A stretch of DNA of 64,000 bases from Sheuella amnicola (GTDB lineage Bacteria; Pseudomonadota; Gammaproteobacteria; Burkholderiales; Burkholderiaceae_B): contig NZ_JAAGRN010000006.1 in NCBI RefSeq assembly GCF_010499255.1, positions 62,001 to 126,000 of the forward strand, given 5' to 3'. Below are positions 48,350 through 55,897 of the stretch, piece by piece. Each line of letters starts with the position of its first letter. Positions within the stretch are counted from its first letter, which is position 1. Below the pieces are notes generated by a model. It was not told where the DNA came from and searched no databases. It worked only from the letters and a program-made list of their open reading frames with translations. Position numbers and translations under genes: made by a program.

Positions 48350-48595
48350 TTAAAACCCGATATCGTTGCGATCATCGCCCGGCTGCGGAACGATGTATAA
48401 CGACAGCAAGCTGGACAAAGCGCAAATAAACCAGAAAAAGAAAAAGCCCGCAGCGTAGAGAACTTCGCGTTGCGGACGCAGGTAACCGAAAATCGCAACA
48501 TCCAGCGGGTCGATTAAGGCGAACACCACTGCGCTTGCCATACCGGCCATCAAAAAAGATGGCCATAAAATCCACATCAATGAACGCCATTTCAT
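48350..48595 (-). CDS. Small membrane protein at the end of the cbb3 operon
   Basis: An 81-residue protein with two hydrophobic segments (about 8-28 and 44-68, the latter FFFFWFICALSSLLSLYIV), ending in a short polar tail. It follows fixH by 13 nt on the same strand and is the last gene of the oxidase block. Small two-span proteins at this position occur in other betaproteobacterial cco clusters, but I know no function for them. The AGGGG before the ATG supports translation. Confidence 0.65.
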   Translation of the reverse strand: MKWRSLMWILWPSFLMAGMASAVVFALIDPLDVAIFGYLRPQREVLYAAGFFFFWFICALSSLLSLYIVPQPGDDRNDIGF

Positions 48596-48608: not shown

Positions 48609-48842
48609 TTATCGCGTGACGGATTCAGAAGTTGGCTTGGTTAGATTCTTTTCAACCACAAGTCCACGCTTCATGCCGCCATCCAACAAGGGTTGATCGG
48701 AAAAATTCTTGAATGCGAATGAAATTGTAATGGCACAGCCAATGATGGCAATCACCGGTCCCGCCATCAATATCCAAGGCCAAGGCTGGCGATACCATGG
48801 GCCGTTATCAAGTTGCGACTCCGTTTTCAATTGTTTGTCCAC
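48609..48842 (-). CDS. fixH: Short FixH-like cbb3 assembly protein
   Basis: A 77-residue protein with one membrane span (about 22-45, PWILMAGPVIAIIGCAITIS) preceded by the FixH-typical WYRQPWPW, and a short periplasmic KNFSDQPLLDGGMKRGLVV segment. Typical FixH/CcoH proteins are about 150-180 aa, with a beta-sandwich periplasmic domain that is missing here. FixH/CcoH helps assemble cbb3 oxidase and copper delivery. The start is GTG 48842 with a strong AAGGAG site. It lies 9 nt after ccoG. It may be naturally short in this lineage. No downstream continuation of the domain is seen before the next gene. Confidence 0.75.
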   Translation of the reverse strand: MDKQLKTESQLDNGPWYRQPWPWILMAGPVIAIIGCAITISFAFKNFSDQPLLDGGMKRGLVVEKNLTKPTSESVTR

Positions 48843-48851
48843 AGTGTCTCC

Positions 48852-50399
48852 TTAATTGGGAAAGATAAAACTGGATGCTTCCTGCACGACCGATTCGATC
48901 GTGCCATCCGGTTTGATGGAAGTCGTAACGATACGAATCGGTTGGGATCCGGGCTTACCGGATTCGACAGGTGCGCGAACAACGACAGGCAACATTCTAT
49001 TCGAGGCGGCGGGGACTTCTATCCGCGATGAATCCCAAGGCGTTGAATGAGCAGACTGAGCCTGATCTTGCTGACGAATGCCTAATTGATCCGCAACCTT
49101 CATCGTGATGCCAGGCAGTCCTTCAGCCTTGAACGACAGGGTCAAAGGATGTTCGGATGCATTCATAATCTGCAACCGATAAACGTTTTCTATCATGCCG
49201 CCTGCAACCTCGCGACTCAACACGCCTCGATCCCGGATGACATCGACGCGCAAGGTTTCCCTTGTTGCGAGCGCACCAATGAAAATGGAAACCAGAATCA
49301 GCATGATCAAGCTGTATATCAAGACACGAGGCCTGAACAAATGCCTACGCACTTGCGAAACCGAAAGTCGCTCGAGCATGCCACGCTCGGATGTATAACG
49401 AATCAAACCACGCGGATAAGATACCTTATCCATGACCTCGTTACAGGCATCGACACAGGCTCCGCAGCCAATGCACATGTACTGCAATCCCTGTCGGATA
49501 TCAATACCGGTCGGACAAACCTGAACGCAAATGCTGCAATCGATGCAATCCCCCAATCCGGCGGCTTTATGATCGATTTTGCGTGAGCGTCCGCCACGCG
49601 GCTCTCCGCGCACGGTATCGTATGTCACGATCAAGGTGTCGCGATCGACCATCACGCTTTGAAAGCGTGCGTAGGGGCACATGTATTTGCAAACCTGCTC
49701 GCGCAAGAAGCCGGCATTACCCCAAGTTGCAAAACTGTAAAAAATTAACCAGAACCACTGCCACGGGCCAAGCGTTAACGCAATCAGATCCGCGCCAAGA
49801 CTACGTATTGGGGAGAAAAATCCCACGAACGTAAAACCTGTCCAGCAGGCAACAATCAACCACAAAACGTGCTTAGTGGTCTTAATGCGCAACTTGCGAA
49901 ATGAGAATGGAGACTCGTCCAGACGAATCCGCGCCACTCGATCACCTTCCACACGGCGCTCGATCCACATGAAGATTTCGGTATAGACGGTCTGAGGACA
50001 TGCATAACCGCAAAACAAACGACCAGCGACTGCGGTAAACAGAAAAAGTCCCAGCGCGGAGATGATTAGCAACAGGGTCAGATAAATCACATCCTGTGGC
50101 CAAAGCACCATGCCGAAAATATAAAACTTACGCGCCCCAAGATCGAACAGAACTGCCTGGCGATCGTTCCAATTCAACCAGGGCAAGCCGTAAAACAATA
50201 ACTGCGTCAGAGCAACAAAAACAATACGCCAGCTGGCGAACCATCCTTTGACTGATCTCGAATAGATTTTTTGCCTAACATCGACAATCTGTTCTTCGAT
50301 CGTTTCGGCGCCGGCAGGCACAACTTTCGCCCCGGCCGGTCGCCATGCTGGAGGTTCCGATGAAGAACCTCCCTGATCAGACTTTGAATGAATCGCCAT
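48852..50399 (-). CDS. ccoG: CcoG polyferredoxin, cbb3 oxidase accessory protein
   Basis: A 515-residue membrane-bound Fe-S protein. It has several spans in the N-terminal half, the CGYACPQTVYTE motif, and two 4Fe-4S ferredoxin clusters around residue 265 onward (CIDCSICVQVCPTGID and CIGCGACVDACNE). A further span precedes a C-terminal immunoglobulin-like periplasmic domain. CcoG is reported to reduce Cu(II) to Cu(I) during cbb3 assembly. Full length and intact, in contrast to the reduced CcoI and FixH of the same block. Confidence 0.94.
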   Translation of the reverse strand: MAIHSKSDQGGSSSEPPAWRPAGAKVVPAGAETIEEQIVDVRQKIYSRSVKGWFASWRIVFVALTQLLFYGLPWLNWNDRQAVLFDLGARKFYIFGMVLWPQDVIYLTLLLIISALGLFLFTAVAGRLFCGYACPQTVYTEIFMWIERRVEGDRVARIRLDESPFSFRKLRIKTTKHVLWLIVACWTGFTFVGFFSPIRSLGADLIALTLGPWQWFWLIFYSFATWGNAGFLREQVCKYMCPYARFQSVMVDRDTLIVTYDTVRGEPRGGRSRKIDHKAAGLGDCIDCSICVQVCPTGIDIRQGLQYMCIGCGACVDACNEVMDKVSYPRGLIRYTSERGMLERLSVSQVRRHLFRPRVLIYSLIMLILVSIFIGALATRETLRVDVIRDRGVLSREVAGGMIENVYRLQIMNASEHPLTLSFKAEGLPGITMKVADQLGIRQQDQAQSAHSTPWDSSRIEVPAASNRMLPVVVRAPVESGKPGSQPIRIVTTSIKPDGTIESVVQEASSFIFPN

Positions 50400-50412: not shown

Positions 50413-51351
50413 TTACTTTGCTACATTCGTAGTTGAAGACGCCACATCTTTACCGCCGGTCAGACCCCACACCCAAGCCGTCAACATTCTGATCTGCTCG
50501 GGAGTCAATTTCTGGGCCTGCGCGGGCATACGGTTATTACGGCCGTTCAGAATGCCATTGACGATCTCGTTTTCTGAACTACCGTACAACCAAACGTCAT
50601 CGGTCAGGTTTGGCGCGCCAAGCGCCTTGTTACCCTTGCCTTCTGCGCCGTGACAAGCCACACAGAAGTTCTGATATTCGCGTTTGCCGCGGATCGCTCT
50701 AATCGAATCGCTGGCAAGACCTGACATCGAACGAACATACTGGGCGATATCACCGGCAACCTGAGGAGACATGGACTCCTTGAATCCGGGCATCACACCG
50801 TTACGGCCATTCGTGATGGTTTCTTGAATAACAGCGGGTTCGCGTCCATACATCGAGTCACCTTCGACCAGATTGGGAAACGATTTGCTGCCCCTGGCAT
50901 CCGAACCATGGCACTGTGCGCAGTTGTTCAAAAACAGACGCTGGCCGATCACTTGTGCATCCTTGTCCGCTGCGATGGCTGGGATGTCCATGGCAGCATA
51001 CTTTGCAAACACAGGCTTGACTGCGGCATCATGGGCCGACTGATCCTGCTGGATTTCCTGCTGGGTCGTATAGCCAAGCTTGCCGGCGTAAAAGCCAAGT
51101 CCCGGATAAAGAATCAGGTAGCCCAGACCGAAGATACACATACCCACATACATGATGGTCCACCAACGCGGAACTGGATTGTTCAACTCGCGCAGATTGC
51201 CATCCCATACGTGGCCAGTATCCTCAACTTTAACCGTGCGGGATCCCAGCCACTTGCGCTGCGAAAAAATCAGCCACAAGCACCAGATAATGCCAAGCAC
51301 CGCAATGCTGCCAACGTAATAGCCCCAAAAGCCGTCAACGAAATCGCTCAT
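50413..51351 (-). CDS. ccoP: cbb3 cytochrome oxidase subunit III, dihaem CcoP
   Basis: A 312-residue subunit with two N-terminal membrane spans (about 10-28 and 62-82), followed by two periplasmic c-type haem domains with CAQCH and CVACH. CcoP accepts electrons from soluble or membrane cytochromes and passes them to CcoO. Its ATG overlaps the ccoQ stop (ATGA). Confidence 0.96.
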   Translation of the reverse strand: MSDFVDGFWGYYVGSIAVLGIIWCLWLIFSQRKWLGSRTVKVEDTGHVWDGNLRELNNPVPRWWTIMYVGMCIFGLGYLILYPGLGFYAGKLGYTTQQEIQQDQSAHDAAVKPVFAKYAAMDIPAIAADKDAQVIGQRLFLNNCAQCHGSDARGSKSFPNLVEGDSMYGREPAVIQETITNGRNGVMPGFKESMSPQVAGDIAQYVRSMSGLASDSIRAIRGKREYQNFCVACHGAEGKGNKALGAPNLTDDVWLYGSSENEIVNGILNGRNNRMPAQAQKLTPEQIRMLTAWVWGLTGGKDVASSTTNVAK

Positions 51352-51527
51352 GGCTGTATGTCCTTTTTAATTTGCGAATATTCAATCCCTTCATCAGGCA
51401 AAGCGAAGGGCAGCATGGCTGCTTCTTTGTTCGCCTGCTTGCGGCCACTGGAGAATGCCCACCAGATGATGCCGAAAAAAGTGATCATCGCTAAAACTGT
51501 CGAAAACGCGTTCAGATAGGCCAACAT
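51348..51527 (-). CDS. ccoQ: CcoQ, small cbb3 oxidase subunit
   Basis: A 59-residue single-span protein I translated from the minus strand. It starts [14 protein letters not shown], with a hydrophobic core ITFFGIIWWAFS, and then basic and acidic residues to a stop overlapping the ccoP ATG. The start shares one base with the ccoO stop (TAATG). CcoQ stabilises the association of CcoP with the complex. Size, topology and position between ccoO and ccoP identify it. Confidence 0.92.
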   Translation of the reverse strand: MLAYLNAFSTVLAMITFFGIIWWAFSSGRKQANKEAAMLPFALPDEGIEYSQIKKDIQP

Positions 51528-52204
51528 TATTTTTTGCCTCCAGCTGCAGCGGCTGCGTCTTTCGCATCCTTGATCTGAGCCTTGCGTGCGGCCGAAACCA
51601 AGCTCTGCAAATAAGCAACCAGAGCATCTTCTTCGGTCTTGCCCTTCAGGAGTGCAGGTGCTGCGGCGATCTCGTCATCCTTGTACGGCACGCCGACAAC
51701 ACGCAAAGCACGCATGCGGTCACCAATGTCGTTGGTTTGAACCGGAGTTTTTTCAAGCCATGGATAGCCAGGCATATTGGATTCAGGAACAACCGTGCGA
51801 GGATTACGCAAATGGATGCGATGCCAGTCGTCTGAATAACGCTCACCCACGCGTGCCAGATCAGGACCTGTACGCTTTGAGCCCCACTGGAACGGGTGGT
51901 CATACACCGACTCGCCGGCGATGGAGTAATCGCCGTAACGTTGAACCTCGGCGCGCAGCATGCGAACTTGCTGGGAATGGCAGTTGTAGCAACCTTCGCG
52001 GATATAAATATCGCGCCCGATCAGTTGCAGGGCACCATAAGGTTCAACGCCTTTAGGTGCCTCGGTCGTCGAGTGTTGGAAGAACAACGGAACGATCTGA
52101 ACCAGGCCGGCGAACAGCACGACCAGGATACTGCAGATGATCATCAAACCGATATTCTTCTCAAGGGTTTGATGCGAGAAGAAAGAATGCTTTTCATTTG
52201 CCAT
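51527..52204 (-). CDS. ccoO: cbb3 cytochrome oxidase subunit II, monohaem CcoO
   Basis: A 225-residue membrane-anchored cytochrome c. It has one N-terminal span (about 18-42) and a haem site Cys72-x2-Cys75-His76 (CYNCH), followed by the family segment [11 protein letters not shown] and a distal Met region ([10 protein letters not shown]). The start is ATG 52204, because GAGGAGAT lies just upstream and the gap to ccoN is then 10 nt. The open frame upstream lies within ccoN. Confidence 0.96.
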
Positions 52205-52214
52205 GACGATCTCC

Positions 52215-53675
52215 TCAGGCGTGTGCCGACGTGGCGGTTGATGACTGGACAACAGCGGGAATCTCTGGATTCACCACTTTATTGCCCACCACGGTCTTGA
52301 ACACGTTGTATCCCATCAGCACTATTCCGCCGAGGTACAAGGTGCCGCCCAACAAGCGAATCGCGTAGAACGGATAGGTCGACTTCACGGATTCAACGAA
52401 GCTATACACCAACGAACCGTCAGCTTCGGTTGCGCGCCACATCAAGCCTTGCATGACACCCGCAATCCACATCGAAGCGATGTAGAGTACGACGCCGATC
52501 GTCGCGACCCAGAAATGCACTTCAACCAAACGGGTGCTGTACATTTTGTCGCGTCCCCACAAACGAGGGATCAGGTAGTACAGCATACCGAATGTGATCA
52601 TCGCGACCCAACCAAGGGCGCCAGAATGCACGTGTCCAACCGTCCAGTCGGTATAGTGCGACAAGGCGTTCACAGTACGGATCGACATCATCGACCCTTC
52701 GAAAGTCGACATACCGTAGAAGGAAAGCGATACGACCATGAACTTCAGGATCGGATCGGTGCGAAGCTTGTTCCATGCTCCGGACAAGGTCATGATGCCG
52801 TTGATCATGCCACCCCATGAAGGCGCCAGCAAAATCAGCGAAAACACCATACCGAGCGACTGAGTCCAGTCAGGCAGGGAGGTATACAGGAGATGGTGCG
52901 GACCAGCCCACATATAGGTGAAAGCCAAAGCCCAGAAGTGAACGATCGACAGGCGATACGAGTAAATGGGGCGATCGGCCTGTTTAGGAATGAAGTAATA
53001 CATCATGCCCAAAAAGCTGGTAGTCAGGAAAAAACCGACAGCGTTGTGGCCATACCACCACTGAACCATCGCATCCTGGACGCCGGCGTAAGCCGAGTAT
53101 GACTTGAAAGGTCCCCAGGGAATTTCGATGTTATTTACGATATGCAAAACGGCGATCGTCAAAATGTACGAACCGAAAAACCAATTGGCGACGTAAATAT
53201 GCTTGACGCGACGCTTGACGATGGTCCCGAAGAACACGATGGCGTAGGCAACCCAGACCAGTGTAATCAGAATGTCGATGGGCCATTCAAGTTCTGCGTA
53301 TTCTTTACCGGAGGTAAACCCCAGCGGCAATGAAACGGCGGCACCGACAATGATCAGTTGCCACCCCCAGAATGTAAACGCAGCCAACCAACCGGCAAAT
53401 AAACGTGCCTGACAAGTACGCTGCACCACGTAGTAGGAAGCAGCAAACAAGGCGCTACCGCCAAAAGCAAAAATCACCGCATTGGTATGCAATGGACGCA
53501 GGCGACCATATGTCAGCCATGGAATATCAAAATTCAATTGCGGCCACAGCAATTGCGCTGCGATCACAACACCGACGAGCATGCCAACGATTCCCCATAC
53601 GACCGTCATGATGGCGAATTGCCTCACAACGGTGTAGTTGAAAGTATCGGCTTTTGCAACAGGCGAACTAGCCAT
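52215..53675 (-). CDS. ccoN: cbb3 cytochrome oxidase catalytic subunit I, CcoN
   Basis: The 486-residue haem-copper oxidase core with about twelve membrane spans. Haem b, haem b3 and CuB ligand histidines are visible in [27 protein letters not shown] and [13 protein letters not shown]. It reduces oxygen to water with high affinity while pumping protons. The start is ATG 53675 with AGGA 9 nt upstream. A TTG seven codons earlier is worse. A class II Fnr promoter precedes it. Confidence 0.97.
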
Positions 53676-53714
53676 GATGTGCGTTCCTTTTTTCAAACGT
53701 TTTTCTATAGGCGT

Positions 53715-53756
53715 ATCATGCCGTCATAGTGGAAAACCCCACTTGATCTGGATCAA
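53715..53756 (-). promoter_or_regulatory. Class II Fnr-dependent promoter of ccoNOQP
   Basis: A perfect Fnr box TTGAT-N4-ATCAA spans 53756-53743. On the minus strand a -10 element CATGAT (53720-53715) sits so that the box centre falls at -41.5 from a start near 53708. This is the classical activating geometry. The ccoN ATG is about 33 nt further. Confidence 0.85.
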
Positions 53757-53814: not shown

Positions 53815-53955
53815 CTAATCGTCGTCTTCGAGAATCGATCTGGCAGCCTGGTCCGGATCATCGTACTGACCGGAAAATACGGCCCACCACAAGACAGCGC
53901 CGATTCCGGCCACGACGACCAGACTTAGCGGTAGAAGCAGGTAAAGGATTTCCAC
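53815..53955 (-). CDS. ccoS: CcoS, small cbb3 maturation protein
   Basis: A 46-residue single-span protein read from the minus strand with a GTG start. The N-terminal hydrophobic segment is LYLLLPLSLVVVAGIGAVL, then WWAVFSGQYDDPDQAA, the conserved CcoS tail (SGQFDDLDGP-type), ending in Glu/Asp. CcoS is needed for insertion of haem or CuB into CcoN. It lies 17 nt after ccoI. No convincing ribosome site is seen, so it may be translated by coupling to ccoI. Confidence 0.88.
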   Translation of the reverse strand: MEILYLLLPLSLVVVAGIGAVLWWAVFSGQYDDPDQAARSILEDDD

Positions 53956-53972: not shown

Positions 53973-54950
53973 TTAAACGGGTTCACCCGCACGCACAGGT
54001 GCGGAGCAAGCTGACCCATCGTCCCGAACGTCATGCGGAATCCGATATAAGCGCCAGGCATTGAAAACCACGGCCGCGGAGGACAGAAACATCGCTAGCG
54101 CAGCAACCCAGGGGGTCACAAGGCCGACCGCGGCAACGGGCATGGTCAAAACATGCCAGATCAGTGAACCATACAGATTCTGGCGGGTAACCTTGCGCGT
54201 CTGCTCAAACAATGCAAGCCTTTGCCCCCCGGTCATGGAAGGATAAGCTGCAATAGTGGCGTGAGCGGCGGCGAGCGAAATCGGAGCGGCTAGGGACAAT
54301 GCGCAAGGGCAACTCATCACCAGCATGGAAACAAGAACAGTCAGGGCATGATCAGGACTCAATTTGAACCAAACCATTCCAATCATCAGGGAAAAAGCCA
54401 ATTGAACAAGAATGAACAGGGTCGCAACACGATCGGATCGATTCAGCAACGGATCGCATAGTTGGGATTGCATTTGGCCGGACTCTATCAGGTCGACGGA
54501 CTGGCGGGCACGTGTCTCGAAATAGCGCGCGGTCAGCAAGAAGGCCACAAACATGGTGACGGAATCGAAATAAACCTCGCCGGATCCGGTCATGGTCGCG
54601 ATCGCGCTAGGGACAAAGGCTGCGATGATACTAATGGTGACAGGCACATCCATATTGATGCGGCGCTGGGATATTGCCTTGGCCAAGCCCCGCCACATCG
54701 GCCACGCCGCATACAGCACTACCGGCACTGTCATGACGAAACTGGCCCAATTCATCAGGAAAATCGCCCAATCGAGGACTTCGAGACTGTCATTTGGACC
54801 GGCATCGACACGCAAATAACCCGGCAAGGCAAACATCATGACTTGCATCATGGCCAGCCAAGCCAGCCCCAACCGCACTAGCGTGCGACGCCTTTCGACC
54901 AATTCCTGGGGCGTGAGGGGTCGATTGAGCGCAAAGATGGATTTAGCCAT
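53973..54950 (-). CDS. ccoI: Miniature CcoI-like protein: membrane part of a P1B copper ATPase without its soluble domains
   Basis: A 325-residue protein aligned by eye to CcoI/FixI (normally about 720-830 aa). Kept: the first helices (residues 24-90, TVPVVLYAAWPMWRG), the MDVPVTISI and GSGEVYFDSVTMFV helix pair (100-145), the CPC helix (Cys214 and Cys216 in SCPCALSLAAP), and the last two helices (255-302, including VTPWVAAL and the MxxSS-type MFLSS). Missing: the N-terminal Cys-containing metal domain, the actuator domain with TGES (only about 20 residues join 150 to 172), and the whole P and N domains with DKTGT and GDGIND (gap near 236). The YN motif of the penultimate helix reads WH. The frame is uninterrupted and sits in the normal ccoI position. 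It cannot hydrolyse ATP in the usual way. It may be a passive copper channel, a scaffold for maturation, or decaying. Confidence 0.85.
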   Translation of the reverse strand: MAKSIFALNRPLTPQELVERRRTLVRLGLAWLAMMQVMMFALPGYLRVDAGPNDSLEVLDWAIFLMNWASFVMTVPVVLYAAWPMWRGLAKAISQRRINMDVPVTISIIAAFVPSAIATMTGSGEVYFDSVTMFVAFLLTARYFETRARQSVDLIESGQMQSQLCDPLLNRSDRVATLFILVQLAFSLMIGMVWFKLSPDHALTVLVSMLVMSCPCALSLAAPISLAAAHATIAAYPSMTGGQRLALFEQTRKVTRQNLYGSLIWHVLTMPVAAVGLVTPWVAALAMFLSSAAVVFNAWRLYRIPHDVRDDGSACSAPVRAGEPV

Positions 54951-54960
54951 AATGAGGCAA

Positions 54961-55002
54961 ATGATATGTCAATAACGAAAAATCGGACTTGATAAAAGTC
55001 AA
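54961..55002 (-). promoter_or_regulatory. Near-perfect Fnr site and -10 element before ccoI
   Basis: TTGAT-AAAA-GTCAA (54989-55002, nine of ten consensus bases) is followed on the minus strand by TATCAT (54966-54961). This reproduces the class II Fnr spacing, with a start about 54954, only some 4 nt before the ccoI ATG. No ribosome site is visible. The site also lies 47-60 nt before queF on the other strand. Confidence 0.6.
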
Positions 55003-55048
55003 TTTTGCAGGGATTCGATAAAATTTGTCATCATTCTCGGATCGACTC

Positions 55049-55897
55049 ATGACAGACTTCCTGCAACATGCCCCTCTTGGGCAGACAGTACTTTATCCAT
55101 CTCAATACGATGCTGGTCTGCTGTTTCCGATCCCGCGTGCCGAGGCGCGAAGCCAGATAGGGATCGCGGACTCGGCCCTGCCCTTTACGGGATGGGATTT
55201 GTGGAATGCCTATGAAATGTCGTGGCTAAACGCAAAAGGACTGCCCCAGGTAGGTATCCTTCGTGCACGCGTGCCGCTCGACAGCGCCAATATTATCGAA
55301 TCCAAGTCATTCAAGCTTTATCTAAACAGTTTTAATCAAACCCGGTTCGATCACCCACAAGCTGTTATCGATCTTCTAACAAAAGATTTATCAGATGCCG
55401 CTGCCGGCACGGTCGAAATCGACTTGATTGGACCCGAACGGTTTGGCCTTGAAATTTTTGGCGAGTTCGATGGTATCAATCTGGATTTGCAGGACGTCGA
55501 AATCGATCAATATCAAACCGATCCGACCCTGCTTGAGCTAGATAGGCATCCCAAGTCGAATGAGGCAGGCCACGTCACGGAACAATTATTTTCCAGACTA
55601 CTGAAATCGAACTGTCCCGTAACCGGCCAACCCGACTGGGCTTGTGTGCAAATTATTTACTCGGGCAAACCGATCGATCACGCCGGCTTATTGAAGTACA
55701 TCGTCTCTTTCAGGATGCACAGCGGATTTCATGAAAATTGTGTTGAAAGAATTTTTTCAGACATCATGAACCGATGCGCGCCTGCCACTCTGTCGGTTTT
55801 CGCTCGCTACACCCGTCGAGGCGGTCTGGACATCAATCCATGGCGTGCCACCCCCGGAATGCCGGCTCCACAGTGGCGCCGTAGCGCCCGCCAGTAG
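55049..55897 (+). CDS. queF: NADPH-dependent 7-cyano-7-deazaguanine (preQ0) reductase
   Basis: A 282-residue long-form (YqcD-type) QueF, which reduces preQ0 nitrile to preQ1 amine in queuosine synthesis. With the ATG at 55049 the numbering equals E. coli QueF: catalytic Cys190 and Asp197 fall in SNCPVTGQPDW. The QueF motif ESKSFKLYLNSFNQTRF is present near 84-100. GGA lies 7 nt before this ATG, and an upstream TTG is less likely. It diverges from ccoI and converges with pgsA. Confidence 0.95.
   Translation: MTDFLQHAPLGQTVLYPSQYDAGLLFPIPRAEARSQIGIADSALPFTGWDLWNAYEMSWLNAKGLPQVGILRARVPLDSANIIESKSFKLYLNSFNQTRFDHPQAVIDLLTKDLSDAAAGTVEIDLIGPERFGLEIFGEFDGINLDLQDVEIDQYQTDPTLLELDRHPKSNEAGHVTEQLFSRLLKSNCPVTGQPDWACVQIIYSGKPIDHAGLLKYIVSFRMHSGFHENCVERIFSDIMNRCAPATLSVFARYTRRGGLDINPWRATPGMPAPQWRRSARQ

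Follow-up and report, generated by a model that had tools for sequence, protein, structure and literature searches.

The closest described relative of the protein reported here is CcoI, also called FixI, a copper P1B-ATPase of the CopA2 type that belongs to the assembly genes of cbb3. In the relevant passages on R. capsulatus CcoI (PMC8475189), the CPC motif is essential even with added copper, the N-terminal sites are helpful and non-essential, and Cu(I) is moved only with hydrolysable ATP. Passages of PMC12617631 report that Caulobacter cbb3 requires FixI even with added copper. Because CPC and FixI are needed despite added copper in these two organisms, CcoI may, by analogy, do more than raise the periplasmic copper supply. 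For a 2020 review (PMC7558416), in the part concerned with this question, cbb3 poses a puzzle: its copper enters from the periplasmic side, but insertion depends on the exporter CcoI and on copper from a cytosolic pool.

A short or ATPase-less CcoI was not found among the open-licence papers searched by title and beginning of the abstract, nor in passages of PMC6769254, PMC12914433, PMC7794356, PMC13038864, PMC11257404, PMC5829832, PMC7558416, PMC13367067 and PMC12617631, nor in the abstract and passages of PMC8475189. The locus BP2167, whose number we deduced from those of genes nearby, is named in two papers on B. pertussis. This agrees, for that open-licence literature, with the initial annotation, which knew of no described protein of this form, and we provisionally regard the protein as undescribed so far.

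A CcoI homolog reduced to its membrane core

The window, that is, the whole stretch of 64,000 nt of Sheuella amnicola DNA analysed here, carries on its minus strand a gene (53973..54950) for a protein of 325 amino acids with an ATG start. From its open reading frame and its alignment it represents the membrane core of CcoI without the ATPase domains, in the following called short CcoI. In the search of the own genome, the gene was found as an open frame of 331 amino acids, free of internal stops. The profile TIGR01511 for copper P1B-ATPases matched the protein with E = 1.6e-22 in three stretches comprising membrane parts only, and its score of 80 bits lies below the curated family cut-off of 397. 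The sole family profile that passed was Pfam E1-E2_ATPase (37.7 vs 28.1), in a match confined to profile positions 87-179 of 181. The matching PDB sequences were metal P1B-ATPases, nearly all of them copper pumps, and these matches fell into separate pieces that skipped the cytosolic domains.

Aligned with full-length CcoI, the short protein keeps eight helices, the motifs MMQVMM, MDVPV, YFD and CPC, and the M..SS motif of the last helix. It lacks the N-terminal metal domains, the actuator domain (M2-M3 loop) and the P and N domains (M4-M5 loop). For comparison we used 76 distinct short rows, obtained from 89 short loci (L001, L006-L093) after removal of L049, which is situated at a contig end, and of identical copies. 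The lengths are 309-363 amino acids in these rows versus frames of about 750-920 amino acids for full CcoI. DKTG, GDGxND and CxxC are absent from all 76 short rows; among 31 full-length rows they occur in 31, 30 and 29, respectively. The string TGE appears in 5 of the 76 short rows, always beside the loop GEVYFDS and outside any actuator domain, and in 27 full-length rows, the remaining four having SGE instead. The alignment thus bears out the initial annotation in its claim that the CcoI helices, CPC and the M..SS motif were kept and, together with the motif counts, in its claim that the N-terminal metal domain and the actuator, P and N domains were lost. One sub-clade (L046, L048, L050) comprises short forms of 356-363 amino acids with a filler of roughly 25 to 45 residues at the place of the lost actuator domain, and with Asn for Asp at the start of the next helix.

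An AlphaFold2 model, based on a 45-row alignment of short forms, reached a mean pLDDT of 86.4 and a pTM of 0.81, with helix M4 broken at CPC. Foldseek returned copper ATPases as the eight best PDB folds, with TM-scores by query of 0.37-0.52 and E-values of 3.1e-4 to 2.1e-2, two of them at E≤0.001. The type of fold is thereby evident for the predicted structure, which superposes only loosely on copper ATPases.

Catalytic domains and copper ATPases elsewhere in the genome

We searched 66 short loci for N-terminal, A and P/N domains and found none encoded nearby, some of these loci being cut by contig ends. The same search in 34 loci with a full-length P1B-ATPase detected the N-terminal domain in 30 and the A and P/N domains in all 34. 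A split ATPase with its catalytic parts encoded nearby was ruled out by the lack of any domain match in the 66 short loci. In the own genome, PF00122 matched four full-length P-type ATPases and short CcoI. A codon scan gave six runs for DKTGT: four belong to those ATPases, and the other two lie in frames of 34 and 221 amino acids, the latter not ATPase-like. On these two scans we rejected orphan catalytic parts in this genome. ATP-driven transport by short CcoI itself is excluded by its anatomy. The earlier claim that the protein cannot run a Post-Albers cycle is supported: A, P and N domains are missing from the protein, none turned up beside the gene in the 66 loci, and the scans of the own genome gave no orphan A or P domain.

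Among the matches listed, with up to 14 candidates per genome, so that one could be missed where there are more, only two of the 104 genomes with the short form (see below) had two CcoI matches at E≤1e-10. One (G014) has as its second match an HMA-type copper ATPase of 718 amino acids, and the two matches in the other (G092) are pieces of a split gene; a second, full CcoI beside the short form was rejected on these grounds. Other copper ATPases are common. A match to TIGR01511 at E≤1e-60 is present in 104/104 short-form genomes and in 143 of 151 genomes of the family overall. The own genome encodes at least two copper ATPases over the family cut-off, which answers the suggested check for a second full-length copper ATPase, and two Sco-type proteins. 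On its contig C1, around 190500-193650 (L129, L136 of G000), a Sco1/SenC-type gene adjoins a CopA-like copper ATPase gene, and the encoded Sco1/SenC-type protein is a possible periplasmic acceptor of exported copper.

The short ccoI gene belongs to a cco cluster

The minus-strand gene order is short ccoI, ccoS, ccoN, ccoO, ccoP, ccoG and a short ccoH-like gene. The adjoining ccoS (53815..53955, minus strand) is intact and encodes 46 amino acids from a GTG start (Pfam FixS, 6.2e-19; TIGR00847, 1.9e-12). It is followed on the same strand by ccoN (52215..53696; TIGR00780, 788.5 bits over a cut-off of 583), ccoO (51527..52252; TIGR00781), ccoP (50413..51351; TIGR00782) and ccoG (48852..50399; TIGR02745), the last three also over their cut-offs. 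The ccoH-like gene (48609..48842, minus strand; 77 amino acids) has a weak FixH match of 21.6 bits, below the cut-off of 23, which covers just profile positions 1-36 of 150. A second membrane assembly factor may therefore be shortened too, judging from this partial match. Following ccoH, there is a membrane-like ORF of 81 amino acids (48350-48595, minus strand) without a Pfam or NCBIfam match; L115, L131 and L133 carry related ORFs at the corresponding position.

Fnr-like boxes were found before short ccoI (54989..55002, plus strand, one mismatch) and before ccoN (53743..53756, plus strand, perfect). Window-wide, there are 10 such sites with at most one mismatch versus 4.0 expected by chance, and it is therefore the position that counts and not the match alone. 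Upstream of the short gene the best TTGATNNNNATCAA was perfect in 60 of the 76 rows, had one mismatch in 13 and three or four mismatches in 3, placing an Fnr-like box there in 73/76 rows; the same TTGATNNNNATCAA scan inside the short gene gave none with one mismatch or fewer. The gene queF (55025-55897, plus strand) is divergent from short ccoI and shares with it the intergenic stretch containing the Fnr-like box. Sequence and profiles hence agree with the initial annotation in placing the gene in the ccoI position of a cbb3 block, with an Fnr-like box upstream and an intact ccoS adjoining.

Besides its place in the cco cluster, short ccoI shows co-occurrence with ccoN, which was detected (E≤1e-100) in 102 of the 104 short-form genomes; in the remaining two (G060, G098) the short gene is close to the end of its contig. 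Conversely, ccoN without a CcoI match was seen in three genomes (G069, G106, G142), in two of which (G069, G142) it is located at a contig start. FixS scored over its cut-off in 119/151 family genomes, some of these being weak matches inside longer frames.

In G092, a single contig of 4.04 Mb, short ccoI is in two pieces with a 316-aa transposase-like gene between them (L116, 6053-7003), and ccoN carries an in-frame stop. A broken ccoN is mentioned for B. pertussis in passages of PMC13038864 and PMC11257404; G092 is thus probably a B. pertussis genome, and its insert probably IS481. The joint loss of short ccoI and ccoN in this genome fits a role in cbb3 only. In G102, ccoN has a stop and short ccoI is still open; here short ccoI does not yet follow the loss of ccoN.

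Distribution and origin of the short form

Matches to the short protein at E≤1e-10 were obtained in 116/151 genomes of the same family, of which we classed 104 as short form and 12 as full-length. By record name the short form occurs in Achromobacter, Bordetella, Pusillimonas, Pollutimonas, Paenalcaligenes, Candidimonas, Zwartia and others, that is, in the Alcaligenaceae. Except for a contig-edge fragment (G060) and the split gene of G092, the short forms are open frames of 312-413 amino acids (102 genomes). The full-length class consists of eleven genomes with frames of 672-858 amino acids plus G079, whose 367-aa frame matches only residues 21-159 and which was grouped as full-length with its genus-mate G011. 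The form seen in the window is thus widespread in one bacterial family and not specific to this strain.

In an order-wide sample, 133 of 200 genomes matched the short query at E≤1e-20. Four family genomes in this sample matched along the short query, versus 0/129 genomes of other families. The best match lay in a frame of at least 738 amino acids in 127 of these 129, the exceptions being G251 (476) and G316 (404). As for independent short forms, we searched 369 genomes of the class with the short profile; at E≤1e-50 the matches listed, with up to six candidates per genome, came from the own genome only, and a more diverged short form would escape this search.

We then mapped the form of ccoI on a tree of ccoN with 92 rows, from which loci without both genes or with ccoN below 500 bits were left out. 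All 63 short-form rows fell on one side of a branch with an SH-aLRT of 95, and the tree, a quick search without bootstrap, needs one change of form, compared with a mean of 24.9 in shuffles. The initial annotation had proposed at least three separate losses. Three segments are indeed absent; no intermediate was seen, the tree needs a single change of form, and separate losses are not demonstrated.

A genome of the same genus (G026, locus L115) has a full CcoI of 834 amino acids in the same place. The ccoN of G026 belongs to another part of the tree, beside G073 and Cupriavidus (SH-aLRT 89, on a long end branch), and its cco operon has therefore probably been exchanged as a whole, within one genus. 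Two metagenome bins (L039, L046) are recorded as Bordetella parapertussis, but their ccoN genes cluster with Zwartia-like and unnamed freshwater bins and not with Bordetella; these record names look wrong.

Selection on the short gene

For pairs among the 76 rows with dS of 0.05-1.2 we calculated dN/dS by the Nei-Gojobori method with our own script. The median for short ccoI was 0.30 (range 0.04-0.58; 528 pairs), with 12 pairs above 0.5, compared with medians of 0.16 for ccoN (282 of the same pairs) and 0.23 for full CcoI (120 pairs). Short ccoI is less constrained than ccoN, yet clearly under selection. Apart from the broken copy in G092, the relaxed selection and disabling changes of a pseudogene were not observed, and the window copy is without any disabling change. 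Of the three outcomes named beforehand as speaking for decay or artefact, none was encountered: relatives share the same deletions instead of being full-length with frameshift remnants left here, dN/dS is 0.04-0.58 and not near 1, and many separate assemblies agree on the gene.

Changes in the metal site

Throughout the 76 distinct short rows, M100, D101, C214, P215, C216, M287 and S290 are invariant, and S291 of the last helix is kept in 74. The codons for the metal-site motif C214-P215-C216 (54303..54311, minus strand) specify CPC in all 76 short and all 31 full rows. At the Asn position of the YN pair of helix M5 stands His266 (codon 54153..54155, minus strand), assigned from sequence and alignment: position 266 is His in 76/76 short rows versus Asn in 30/31 full rows, with one gap. 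At the preceding position 265, 70 short rows carry Trp and 6 carry Phe, versus Tyr in 29/31 full rows. The YN pair is therefore missing from short CcoI, which has Trp or Phe followed by His; in the window this reads WH, as noted in the initial annotation.

In Caulobacter FixI, site I consists of C398, C400 and Y681 and site II of N682, M703 and S706, according to the part of PMC12617631 dealing with them. By alignment, the Tyr of site I is gone from short CcoI, and in site II His stands in place of Asn. His is a better ligand for Cu(I) than Asn. On the exit side, D129 is Asp in 74 and Glu in 2 of the 76 short rows. As judged from the aligned sequences, the copper path is not fully preserved in short CcoI, because the Tyr of site I is lost, E145 is kept in 71/76 rows, and at D173 25 rows have Asn, with Asp in the other 51.

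There are 14 columns fixed in at least 95% of the short rows but shared by no more than 15% of the full rows, including W31, N67, W86, P114 and Q183; a short insertion between the first two helices is among these specifically fixed columns. At position 261, where 30/31 full rows have Trp, 72 short rows have Gly and 4 have Ala. Relaxed constraint on the cytosolic helix halves, which were assigned by hand from the helix limits of the predicted model, was not significant (Mann-Whitney p = 0.15), and on average the short rows show higher conservation than the full rows in both halves. Short CcoI is a remodelled protein and no wreck.

Proposed role and alternative explanations

We are highly confident that the gene encodes a conserved, functional CcoI without ATPase. 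As to its role, we propose, with a probability of roughly 0.5, that it acts without ATP as a relay for Cu(I) inside the membrane, or as a factor inserting it at CuB of CcoN. Short CcoI takes the place of the full pump that one would expect in Alcaligenaceae, and a membrane site near apo-CcoN that receives Cu(I) and passes it on would be the part of the CcoI job that was retained. The donor could be on the cytosolic side, where Cu(I) would be reduced by CcoG or held by a chaperone, or alternatively a Sco-type chaperone on the periplasmic side; with ccoG, two Sco-type proteins and at least two copper ATPases in the own genome, donors exist on both sides. Cu(I) would be held at a site of CPC, His266 and the Met and Ser of the last helix, and then passed to the CuB site of CcoN by ligand exchange during cbb3 assembly. 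We infer copper binding, donor, acceptor, direction and a requirement of the protein for cbb3 activity alike. In favour of such a relay we counted the fixation of the short form through a family, the genomic link, the Fnr-like box upstream, the invariant site, the single change of form, the purifying selection, the joint breakage in G092, the break of M4 at CPC in the model, and the need for CPC in R. capsulatus and for FixI in Caulobacter despite added copper. Against it we counted the ATP requirement of R. capsulatus CcoI, the incompletely preserved copper path, the copper P1B-ATPase matches in all short-form genomes, the dN/dS of 0.30 compared with 0.16 for ccoN, the non-significant test of the helix halves, and G102 with its open short ccoI beside a stopped ccoN.

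A passive Cu(I) conduit or uniporter, which could follow the membrane potential inward and so bring in periplasmic copper, would make use of the path positions kept at the entry (M100, D101), the centre (CPC, H266, M287, S290) and the exit (D129). However, passive export of Cu+ opposes the inside-negative potential, an open copper path would be a hazard, and D173 and E145 vary on the cytosolic side; we consider such a conduit unlikely. The strict link with the cco cluster would suit a purely structural role without metal, in which the protein holds CcoN, CcoS or CcoG during assembly and uses its membrane part for contacts only; the 14 columns that set the short form apart from full CcoI could be contact surfaces. 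The invariance of CPC, M287 and S290 in 76/76 rows, next to which a new His, itself a metal ligand, became fixed, argues against a metal-free scaffold and makes it decidedly improbable.

Since a copper P1B-ATPase match exists in all 104 short-form genomes, energy could also come from elsewhere, with CopA-type ATPases pumping or pairing and short CcoI only guiding copper to cbb3. The Sco-type gene beside a copper ATPase gene on contig C1 would be in line with this. However, copper ATPases are near-universal in the family with or without the short form (143/151), and to our knowledge no P1B-ATPase acts as such a hybrid, so that we judge energy in trans to be very improbable. Three large segments are absent compared with CcoI, as might be expected of a relic, be it a pseudogene or an assembly or annotation error. 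With the same architecture in 104/151 genomes, dN/dS of 0.04-0.58, an invariant site and a conserved upstream box, this has next to no probability, and conservation and selection led us to reject pseudogene and assembly error for the family as a whole.

A relay of the kind preferred here would be a P-type ATPase fold working without ATP, if true. A natural CcoI without ATPase separates pumping from insertion and provides a natural test of the roles that CcoI has besides pumping. It is conceivable, and we put this forward tentatively, that in one bacterial family a P-type ATPase was turned, once and lastingly, into a copper carrier of the membrane that needs no ATP and whose intramembrane site is rebuilt (CPC plus the new His). 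This would show that what cbb3 assembly cannot do without is the insertion of copper at the membrane by CcoI and not its pumping.

Relationship to known copper transport systems

With CcoI/FixI, short CcoI shares homologous helices, CPC, the M..SS motif of the last helix and the place before ccoS and ccoN. Unlike CcoI/FixI, it has no N-terminal metal sites and no actuator, P or N domain, has Trp/Phe-His in place of YN, carries a short insertion between the first two helices and is smaller. It descends from CcoI and holds its place; by function it is not a P-type ATPase, because each catalytic feature that we tested is missing. With CopA, the CopA1-type exporter (PDB 3rfu, 4bbj, 7r0g), it has the fold of the membrane part (Foldseek) and path residues (alignment) in common, but CopA is an ATP-driven detoxifying pump with cytosolic domains, whereas short CcoI is without the ATPase domains. 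PCH1, the N-terminal fragment of E. coli CopA, and CupA, named in a passage of PMC5829832, are examples of ATP-free copper handling by a part or relative of a pump, as is proposed here. They keep a soluble or anchored metal-binding domain, whereas short CcoI keeps the intramembrane site only.
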